This document shows positions 24,301 through 30,300 of a DNA stretch of 64,000 nt, piece by piece (position 1 is the stretch's first letter; each line of letters starts with the position of its first letter). The stretch lies in the NCBI GenBank assembly GCA_949130485.1, contig OX422183.1:7530636-7594635 (forward strand). Reading direction: 5' to 3'. The notes under the pieces are model-generated. The model was not told the origin of the DNA. It was given only the letters and a program-made list of their open reading frames with translations, and did not search any database. This DNA is from Agelas oroides. Taxonomy: Eukaryota; Porifera; Demospongiae; Agelasida; Agelasidae. Made by a program: the position numbers and the translations under genes.

Positions 24301-27300
24301 ATGATGTCATCTACTACCTTAGAGCTACATACATGTATTCAGACAACATACACCCGTATTGTGTCGTTCGCAATATCTAGAGTTTCCTTCTACCTTCAGT
24401 TTTGTTCACTGCCTATTTCACTATTGTGTAAGATCTCTAGTTAGTTCTTCACTGGTTGATAAGTACACATGGTCTGTGCCCATAGGAGGAGCGACTGTCT
24501 GAGGCACTTGGTGATTGTTCTGATGGAACGCCAGCATCTGAACAGGTTGTGTAGTTTTGACTATGCAGGGATGGAGGAGGAGGTATGGAATATCAACAAC
24601 TCTTGCTTGCATGTCAGATGCACACATATACATGTACATGGTATTTAATAACATTTGCTTACCTGAACTTTGATCTTTACTAACTGTACATATCTGAACT
24701 CCTAAATTTTGCATGCAGCGCAGCTGATGAGGCCTGTTATTGGCCGATATGCGTCCTGTGCAGTGGGAGACTTTGCATGACATCTACATGTAGCGCTAGG
24801 CCTATTTTTAAGGGAGATGTGGTTCACTGATTGTTGCATGCATCCATTGCATATTGTGTTACTGGGTTCAAAGTGCTATAGTGCAGAACTTCCATTAAGG
24901 GTAGGGCTCATACACACTCTGTAAACAGGTCAAGTATTCCTGGGTCTACACAGCATGTATGAGCCCCACACAGCATGTATGAGCCCCGCACAGCATGTAT
25001 GAGCCCCACACAGCATGTATGAGCCCCACACAGCATGTATGAGCCCCACACAGCATGTATGAGCCCCGCACAGCATGTATGAGCCCCACACAGCATGTAT
25101 GTGCCCCGCACAGCATGTATGAGCCCCGCACAGCATGTATGAGCCCCACACAGCATGTATGAGCCCCACACAGCATGTATGAGCCCCACACAGCATGTAT
25201 GAGCCCCACACAGCATGTATGAGCCCCGCACAGCATGTATGAGCCCCACACAGCATGTATGAGCCCCGCACAGCATGTATGAGCCCTGCACAGCATGTAT
25301 GAGCCCCACACAGCATGTATGAGCCCCACACAGCATGTATGAGCCCCACACAGCATGTATGAGCCCCACACAGCATGTATGAGCCCCGCACAGCATGTAT
25401 GAGCCCCACACAGCATGTATGAGCCCCACACAGCATGTATGAGCCCCACACAGCATGTATGAGCCCCGCACAGCATGTATGAGCCCCACACAGCATGTAT
25501 GAGCCCCACACAGCATGTATGAGCCCCACACAGCATGTATGAGCCCCACACAGCATGTATGAGCCCCGCACAGCATGTATGAGCCCCGCACAGCATGTAT
25601 GAGCCCCACACAGCATGTATGAGCCCCACACAGCATGTATGAGCCCCACACAGCATGTATGAGCCCCGCACAGCATGTATGAGCCCCGCACAGCATGTAT
25701 GAGCCCCGCACAGCATGTATGAGCCCCGCACAGCATGTATGAGCCCCGCACAGCATGTATGAGCCCCGCACAGCATGTATGAGCCCCGCACAGCATGTAT
25801 GAGCCCCGCACAGCATGTATGAGCCCTGCACAGCATGTATGAGCCCCGCACAGCATGTATGAGCCCTGCACAGCATGTATGAGCCCCGCACAGCATGTAT
25901 GAGCCCCGCACAGCATGTATGAGCCCTGCACAGCATGTATGAGCCCCACACAGCATGTATGAGCCCCGCACAGCATGTATGAGCCCCACACAGCATGTAT
26001 GAGCCCCACACAGCATGTATGAGCCCCGCACAGCATGTATGAGCCCCACACAGCATGTATGAGCCCCACACAGCATGTATGAGCCCCACACAGCATGTAT
26101 GAGCCCCACACAGCATGTATGAGCCCCGCACAGCATGTATGAGCCCCACACAGCATGTATGAGCCCCACACAGCATGTATGAGCCCCACACAGCATGTAT
26201 GAGCCCCACACAGCATGTATGAGCCCCACACAGCATGTATGAGCCCCACACAGCATGTATGAGCCCCACACAGCATGTATGAGCCCCACACAGCATGTAT
26301 GAGCCCCGCACAGCATGTATGAGCCCCACACAGCATGTATGTGCCCCACACAGCATGTATGTGCCCCGCACAGCATGTATGAGCCCCGCCTTTAGTGGAA
26401 GTTCTGCATTACAGCGCTTTGAATGTAGTAACATGACCACCAGACCATCTTTCTGCTTTGTGGGTCTCGAAACAAAACCGAAGCCATTTTTATGGATTTA
26501 CGGACTGTCATGTGACCTGTTGCCTTTCTTCAAATGGCCTGTTGCTTTCAGTCATGTGACCTGATGCTTTTAATCTTGTGACCTGTCGCTTCCATTCATG
26601 TGACAGGCATATGACTTGTTGCTTCCATTCATGTCACCTATTGTATTAGATTGAGAAGGTGCTGGAGGATAGAGCTCGGACTGTGGATATCACAAAACAT
26701 GGCTACTACGACCTTCTCTACTGTTACCATACCACCAGGGGGAACATCAGGAAATGTGAGGGAGGGAGAGGAAGAGGGGAGGGAAGGAGGGGAAGAGGGA
26801 GGGAAGGAGGGTGGGTAAGGAGGCAGGAGAGAGAAGAGGGAAATAGATGAGGGTAGGAGAGAGAGAAAGGGGGAAGGGGAGTGGGAAAGAAGGAGGAAAG
26901 GAAAAGGAGAAGGAACAACATTGAAGGACGAAAGAGAGTGAGGCGTGGTGGTGGGAAGCGCAGTGGAAAATGTAAAGTGATTCGAATGAGTGCCACCACT
27001 GTTGTGAGTGATACACCTGTATCCACAGCTGCCTATGTGATGTATGAACAGGGTCTGAGGTTGGGGAGGGAGGCACCAGGTCTCAAGTCTTTGCAGAAAC
27101 AGGTTTGGACTACGCTATTTGTTTGTATGCTCAGAGAAGTAGTCTGTGGGGGGTGAAGAGAGGAAGGATGCATTATGTTACAAACTGTAATTACCTCACA
27201 CTCCTGAAGGTTGAATTAGCGGATATATTCTCCTGGGTTTTTTTTAGTTTGTTTGTTTGTTTGCAGGCTAACTGCTATAGCATGGCGCTGACTGCTCTCA

Positions 27301-30300
27301 ATCTGACAGACCCCAAGTATGCATGGGTGATCAGACCAGTGGAGGTGGAAGAGGTATGTGTTGGGGGGAGCTCATGCATGACATGGGTGATCAGACCGGT
27401 GGAGGTGGAAGAGGTATGTGTTGGGGGGAGCTCATGCATGACATGGGTGATCAGACCGGTGGAGGTGGAAGAGGTATGTGTTGGGGGGAGCTCATGCATG
27501 ACATGGGTGATCAGACCGGTGGAGGTGGAAGAGGTATGTGTTGGGGGGAGCTCATGCATGACATGGGTGATCAGACCGGTGGAGGTGGAAGAGGTATGTG
27601 TTGGGGGGAGCTCATGCATAACAAGAGGAGGAGTTACAGTGGACACCAGTGGCGTAGCCAGGTCACAGATGACGCCCGGGCACTGCATTTGGTCAGGGGG
27701 GGGGGGTGGGGGGCGGGCTAGGGGCATGCTCCCCTAGTAAATTTTTGCATCTTAGAGGTAGCTACTCAGATTGTTCTTGAGACTATTTTTGAAATGCCGT
27801 CGGTCTTGAATCGCGAGTAGTTCTGACCCATGACTTCGGCATACGTGCGTGCATGCAGTACAGGTCTTCACCAGTATTAAACGCCAAACGTGCGAACAGT
27901 GAGGTTAAGAGAGCGTAGGAAACTGCGTCATTGCAACATGATAGCTACACTACGAAAGTACGATGTTCAACTGTTTTCCGGACGCTGACGCCCGGGTGGG
28001 CCTGGGTTTGGCTACGCCACTGGTGGACACCATAGGGACCATTGCTGCGTGTTTGCTTTAGGGAGGTGTTCATAGTTTGGGGAGTTCCGGTATATTTCTG
28101 GTAGGCATGGCAATGTGTACTGGGGCCATGAGGCTATGTTATCAGACCACTCTCTTCCTGTGTGTCTATGTAGATTAGAAAGGCTAACAAGAGGCTATTT
28201 TCTAGGATTAGTAATGCTAACATTTAGTCTGGTTGTCATACCCGGCAGCACAAACTTGCAGGAGAGATAGACAAGCGTTTGTCCAATGGAGGTCATTAAA
28301 TAGTGCTTGTGTATGACTGGGTGGCTTTTCCCGTTTGTTATGTGGAGAATAGAGGCATCTGCGTTTTGGAGAGCTGTAAAGTATTATGCGCAATGGAGAT
28401 TCGATCTAGATTACAAGTTTTCTCTGATTTATCAATGTATCTGCTATACTATGGGAAATGTTGGATTCATTGTACACAATATTATGTAGTAGTCATGTGT
28501 GGCAGTCCTGGGTAGAAATCGAACATTCTTCTGGCGTATTTCATCACGTTACTGCATTTGAAGCGCTGTAGCACAGAACTTCCATTAAGGGCAGAGCTCA
28601 TAAGCGTAGACGTGTCAAGTATTGATGTATCTATCCAGCATGTATGAACTCTTAACGGAAGTTCTGCTCTACAGCGCTCCGAACACAGTAATGCAATCAA
28701 AATATGCAACGTAACAATGTTCGATTTCTACCCGGGAATGCCACATATGCAATTGTTTAGCAGCAATGTAATGTATAAAATGGTCTTATTTGACTCTGAT
28801 GAACATGGTTGCAGGCCACTCTTCCTGGGAGAAGAAAGGCTTCCAGACGAAAGAGAACTCACCCCTCTCTGCAAGGTACACACTGCAATTTGGTGACTGT
28901 ATTCACTTGATATACATATAGCTCCTCCTCCTCTTTCCTCAATCCCTCGCTCTTTCTCTCTCCTCCTTTCCCCTCTCTTCTTCCCTCTTTCCACCTCTCA
29001 ATCTCTCCTTTCTCAATATTTTTTATCCCTCCCTCCCTCCCTCCCTCCCTCCCTCCCTCCCTCCCTCCCTCCCTCCCTCCCTTCCACAGGATCCACCAAG
29101 CGGCGTATAGAGGTACTCACCATTAGTGACATTGAGAAAGAGTACCTTCTAGTGAGAGCTAAACTCAGACTGTTGCTAAGAGACCAAACAATGACCACAC
29201 AGCTGTCAAGTAAGGGAAACCTGCCATTGTGTGTTGCTATGGAAACTGCATTGCAGTAAAAGTGTGTGTGTGTGTGTGCGTGCATGTGTGTGTGCATGTG
29301 TGTGTGCATGTGTGTGTGCATGTGTGTGTGCATGTGTGTGTGTGTGTGTGTGTGTGCGTGTGTGTGTGTGCGTGTGTGTGTGTGTGTGTGTGTGTGTGTG
29401 TGTGTGTGGGTGTGCACATGTGTGTTGTGTGATTTACCACTGTCCCCCTCCCCTCATAGGCCCATTTGTCAGTGCGGAGGAGGTGGTTGCATTGTTGGTG
29501 CAGGTGGGATTGTTTGACACGGCCATTGACATCTCCCTCCGCTTCTCCACCCCCATGTCTCCCATCTTTGAGGCCCTCGCTGCACGGTAGGAGAATGCAC
29601 GGTACTCTTGTGGTTCATATAGTTATACGTAGTGCATCCCAAAAGTCCTTGAACAAACGTCTAACGTCTGGATGCGTCTTGAGGTTGTGTCCGCCCACAC
29701 ACTGGACGCAGTTTGCCTTCCGTTCGTCTGTGTGCGTCTGAGTGCATCTGCGTGTGTCTGCATTCATCTGCGTCTGCGTTCGAGCTGCAAGCCTTCCATC
29801 TTAACTTTTGACTGTTTTTATCTTAGGTCAAATGCAAGCTATCGACACAAGATAAAGACCATCGTACAGCCAAGACCTCTCAATAAAATATATCCAAGAA
29901 TCAAGGAAGGTATCCCAGGGATACGCTAGTTCTGAGCGCTGTAGGTTGGTGGGAGGGGTTTCGGAAATGATCAATTGATTGCCAACTGTATCTCCAGTTC
30001 TTGAAAGGCTACTAACATGGGACAAGGATTGGTGGGGAGAGAGACTCAAGGCATAAACATATAACAGCTTGGACATGGGATGCAGCTAAAGAATTTTGCA
30101 TGCGTCTCCGTCCGGATGTGTGTAGACGCAACTAGATCTCTTTTGTTCAAGGACTTTTGAATGTATATACTGTAGCCATGGAGACCTCGGTTCTTTCACC
30201 TCATCATTACATACATGCATACGTAGTGCATTTTGAATGGTCACCTGATGAATACCTAAATGTCTTATGCCAGAAAGATGCTTCACTATTGAGCTATAAG

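Follow-up and report, generated by a model that had tools for sequence, protein, structure and literature searches.

The stretch analysed here, referred to as the window, comprises 64,000 nucleotides of the Agelas oroides assembly GCA_949130485.1 (contig OX422183.1, positions 7,530,636 to 7,594,635, forward strand), and coordinates are those of the window unless stated otherwise. Its central feature is a part of NUP160 in which a minisatellite has multiplied the end of a coding exon together with its splice donor (Table 1). The exons around the array match a NUP160 chain of PDB entry 5a9q (E 1.4e-58, query 4-247) and Pfam family PF23354 (E 1.5e-75), which places them by sequence match in the NUP160 helical region and bears out the gene call of the first-pass annotation. 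In exon-by-exon searches, six matches to the middle helical part form one ordered series within the window, and the N-terminal propeller, for which some matches are weak, is encoded on the same strand and for the most part before the window begins. The first part of the propeller (profile 10-80) has another match at 7502023-7502250 of the contig; this is a partial copy, about 19 kb before NUP160's own N-terminal exon at 7520855.

Table 1. Features of the NUP160 region in window coordinates.
Feature	Position	Strand	Basis or remark
NUP160 exon, end and donor multiplied in the 53-bp array	23111-23319	+	sequence match, joined model
53-bp minisatellite, 2.8 copies	23294-23441	+	donors after 23319, 23372 and 23425
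NUP160 coding exon, 87 nt, ending in phase 0	27267-27353	+	eight-exon open model, PDB match; donor at 27354 most simply ancestral
60-bp minisatellite, 5.03 copies	27322-27623	+	each copy: 32 exon bases, donor and intron bases
Donor 1 (GTATGTG)	27354-27360	+	most simply ancestral
Donor 2	27414-27420	+	use would add 20 residues
Donor 3	27474-27480	+	use would add 40 residues
Donor 4	27534-27540	+	use would add 60 residues
Donor 5, intron-proximal	27594-27600	+	use would add 80 residues
Short non-autonomous transposon (27647-28022), target duplication of 8 bp included	27639-28030	+	inverted repeats
Next NUP160 exon, 61 nt	28815-28875	+	joined model
Following NUP160 exon	29090-29209	+	joined model, PDB match

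Our NUP160 exon list is incomplete and holds 12 exons, eight of which were joined and translated; from the start of the model (23110, one base early) to 29209 these eight join as one open frame. The exon starts 23110 and 35043, as used in the splice-site and joining analyses, are both one base too early. Judging by the human protein, the list presumably lacks the last exons and one that should lie between 29586 and 32360. Simple repeats of the types (TCCC)n and (CA)n at 29026-29082, 32134-32358 and 34948-35042 extend to NUP160 acceptors, and seem to act as the tracts of the acceptors that they adjoin.

Tandem Repeats Finder reports the 60-bp array with 5.0 copies, 99% matches and a score of 590. 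Because the array starts inside the 87-nt exon, its first copy overlaps the coding exon end. Copies 2-4 are identical, a single silent change from A to G (CCA to CCG) sets copy 1 apart from copies 2-5, and copy 5 has one additional change at its 3' edge. This exactness rules out a chance match, and when the 259,295,671-base assembly was searched with the DNA of the array stretch, its own locus was the sole match. The first-pass annotation had described a 60-bp unit with GTATGTG, present five times, and this description holds, except that the exon part of the unit is 32 bases in the register of Tandem Repeats Finder rather than 30. All five copies contain GAG/GTATGT (the slash marks the exon end), and the positions of this motif confirm the exon ends that the same annotation had listed at 27353, 27413, 27473, 27533 and 27593.

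We suggest that the array began as a tandem duplication that would have reached from the last 32 bases of the exon to base 28 of the intron, between ends that on direct reading share two bases of matching sequence (CA). Later growth to five copies may have proceeded by slippage or unequal exchange. The near identity of copies 2-5 suggests that the expansion is recent. The best reading of the array is a recent minisatellite expansion with a captured donor, one among the many minisatellites of NUP160.

Other repeats and a long reading frame also lie in the window. The short transposon sits in the same NUP160 intron, 15 bases past the 60-bp array, and is flanked by the target duplication GTGGACAC at 27639-27646 and 28023-28030; its features suggest that it is hAT-like. 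When 40 of the 104 first-look candidates were scored, at least 49 stretches across the genome matched it, though some of these belong to one and the same copy. Most full matches begin at query base 9 and stop near 384-386, which sets the ends of the element. Elsewhere in the NUP160 introns, a 20-bp unit is repeated 72 times at 24948-26387, with all three minus-strand frames open. A single 639-residue frame at 37120-39039 on the minus strand appears by eye to be TRIM-like with NHL repeats. The arrays at 42099-42180, 49722-50061 and 63047-63587 have, again by eye, GAGACATCATGAGACACC-like units in common and perhaps form a dispersed minisatellite family.

When each of the five donors is joined to the two following exons, none of the five products contains a stop, and 0, 20, 40, 60 or 80 residues are added. 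The first-pass proposal of an open 20-codon unit that causes no frameshift is therefore upheld. The whole of 27354-27593 is open in frame, and under full intron retention the stop falls downstream of the array. With a matrix built from 12 donors, the array's own site among them, the score of the array donor is reached by 6 of the window's 4047 GTs, and five of these six are the array's own. In a leave-one-out comparison the array donor scores 10.2, second among the 12. The nine-base site is the same in all five copies and the flanks are near-identical, and no handicap on donors 2-5 was seen in the sequence. Given that the five sites are identical, the donor in use cannot be read from site strength; with no visible handicap on the later copies, the sequence is compatible with a ladder of products or with constitutive addition of 80 residues. 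A special RNA structure was considered and rejected: the exon with its array folds no more strongly than 100 shuffled sequences (z -0.17), so no structure that singles out a donor is visible.

The product of donor 1 has a linker that differs by at most two residues in length from that of human NUP160, which makes donor 1 most simply the ancestral splice site. The linker at the point of insertion aligns poorly with vertebrates.

The second donor-spanning array copies the end of another NUP160 exon with the donor TGT/GTAAGT in 53-bp units. Joined to the next exons, its donors 2 and 3 lead to a stop after ten codons, and only donor 1 keeps the protein. A second copy of this exon was not found in the assembly; beyond its own locus there are five partial matches of 45-61 bases. 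With no second copy and with frame-breaking extra donors, a copied donor here coexists with use of donor 1 if NUP160 works, and the exon must therefore mostly use donor 1 if NUP160 is functional in this genome. The 53-bp array is the best available hint on how donors behave in such arrays. The two arrays need not behave alike, given that the 53-bp donor has the lowest leave-one-out score among the 12 (-0.12); their flanks also differ. Since its unit breaks the frame and multiplies a donor all the same, repeats in this gene evidently capture donors without any in-frame benefit.

The chance level of these features was estimated in 264 kb, the window and an adjoining 200 kb (including 200 bases of N). 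Of 79 arrays with a period of 20-200, low-complexity ones left out, 29 repeat with a period that is a multiple of 3. A consensus length that is a multiple of 3 occurs in 32 units, and of their 192 frames 113 are open; the counts of 29 and 32 differ because a few arrays have a consensus length other than their period. By accident alone, a unit would thus be both in frame and open with a probability of about 0.2. We infer that the open 60-bp unit is such an accident, of about one in five, although one that would make the array easier to tolerate.

By eye, arrays appear strikingly enriched at the splice sites of this gene. We reject this impression: an array is found within 10 bp of 7 of the 24 splice sites, where 6.2 are expected (P 0.43), and within 20 bp of 9, where the expectation is 6.7 (P 0.25). 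Tandem arrays, whatever their period, make up 24% of the region from 23 to 36 kb (26% of its intronic and 4.8% of its exonic part), and three of the 24 splice sites fall inside them, compared with a mean of 5.7 under rotation (P(>=3) = 0.94, P(<=3) = 0.19). These sites are 23319, 26755 and 27353; the array at 26755 is purine-rich and of low complexity, and copies no donor. Each of the three is a donor site, so that 3 of 12 donors but none of 12 acceptors are involved, numbers too low for a test of donor bias. Splice sites crossed by arrays are thus what is expected of such a repeat-rich gene.

A screen with a coarse donor pattern, from which arrays with fewer than seven different dinucleotides were dropped, gave 16 donor-spanning candidates among 118 array clusters (period 15-500) in the 264 kb. 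Eleven were judged on their consensus alone and five were inspected closely, which left two convincing cases, both in NUP160. The other three inspected arrays were not accepted as exon ends: a 72-bp array (181248-181391 of the joined stretch), a 28-bp array (250086-250144 of the joined stretch) and a 30-bp array at 45857-45979 of the window.

From these sequence data, we suspect that donor 1 is the dominant site of the 60-bp array, and that donors 2-5 are decoys or yield minor in-frame isoforms with 20 to 80 added residues; we put the probability of this reading at roughly 0.55. The conserved linker length and the frame-breaking 53-bp array together favour donor 1.

Alternatively, several donors may be used appreciably, so that NUP160 would form a ladder of products with 0, 20, 40, 60 or 80 extra residues, the range of which follows the repeat number. 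We regard such a ladder as a serious though somewhat unlikely alternative. Five identical donors, all in frame and stop-free, are what it calls for, the insert would land in the poorly aligned linker, and the human IFI6 minisatellite is a precedent with multiple used donors. Against it, open in-frame units are common by accident, and the 53-bp array copies a donor of the same gene without coding benefit. Use of donors 2-5, as the first-pass annotation proposed it, is hypothetical, and so is a protein insert whose length the copy number would set. An extension, quite improbable in our estimation, is that repeat number is polymorphic and sets the count of interchangeable donors, in which case individuals and cells would differ in their NUP160, from no extra residues up to 80 or more.

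It is also conceivable, if improbable, that donor 5 is used almost always, which would give a constitutive 80-residue repeat and leave donors 1-4 inside a 327-nt exon. On direct reading, GGA/GAAG abounds in the exon part of every copy; we take this to be an SRSF1-type motif, which would point to donor 5. Among competing donors, SRSF1 is described as favouring the intron-proximal site and hnRNP A1 the intron-distal one in the excerpted text of PMC5585400. The first preference would select donor 5 and the second donor 1, so these position rules conflict. Equal donor strengths and the uninterrupted frame through the array are compatible with default use of donor 5; the conserved length, however, comes from donor 1, and an intron-proximal default in the 53-bp array would abolish the protein, although the sequence context differs there.

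Very unlikely is an assembly error, in which read collapse or misassembly would have produced the array or its number of copies. The copies are near-identical, as such an error would have it; yet an array of 302 bp in the 32.7-Mb contig is short for long reads (we assume long-read sequencing), and a sharp 60-bp register with a match in a single place is ordinary. Finally, recursive splicing or intron birth, in which the AG/GT of each copy (AGAG/GTATGT) would serve as acceptor as well as donor, much as introns that span tandem copies arose from duplicated AGGT in fission yeast (PMC4974935, in the excerpted text), can be rejected, since on direct reading purine-rich bases rather than a polypyrimidine tract precede the AG of the copies, and the resulting introns would be only 60 nt or small multiples of this.

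If the extra donors are used, the array would be a natural experiment in which the spliceosome has to select from five donors that are identical and evenly spaced, and protein length would report the outcome. The 53-bp array, with its frame-breaking unit, would serve as a built-in control, as donor 1 should be favoured there in the same pre-mRNA. If just one donor is used, minisatellite capture of a splice donor would be tolerated in a gene that is expected to be essential. Were the number of donors polymorphic as outlined above, a core cellular protein would possess a length dial that operates by donor choice alone, without frameshift.

Among known systems, the array resembles intron gain by AGGT duplication (the Rogers model; fission yeast and potato) in its tandem copies with AG/GT. 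In fission yeast, Zhu and Niu found that AGGT duplications led to introns across tandem copies; among cases of this kind of intron gain, one has an intron that spans four copies (both as described in the excerpted text of PMC4974935). The NUP160 unit differs in that it crosses an existing exon-intron junction and has no acceptor-like tract, and it implies no new intron. DOK7 intron 4 is similar in that nearby donors compete by strength, position and SR proteins (PMC5585400, in the excerpted text). There the competition is between two sites 11 nt apart, whereas NUP160 has five that are identical, evenly spaced and all in frame.

The closest likeness is to human IFI6 (G1P3, 6-16), the minisatellite of which reportedly provides multiple splice donors, as Turri, Cuin and Porter are said to have found in 1995. 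The IFI6 unit is 12 bp, so that each adds four residues, compared with the 20 that a unit of the NUP160 array would add. In IFI6, downstream repeat units are alternative donors, two of which are used, and three mRNA species result (PMC4526556, in the excerpted text). Like that minisatellite, the 60-bp array supplies a donor in each unit, overlaps the end of a coding exon and is open in frame; use of downstream donors is on record for IFI6, whereas the NUP160 array is known here from its sequence. If donors 2-5 are used, the NUP160 array would join the IFI6 kind, with a longer unit and in a nuclear pore gene.
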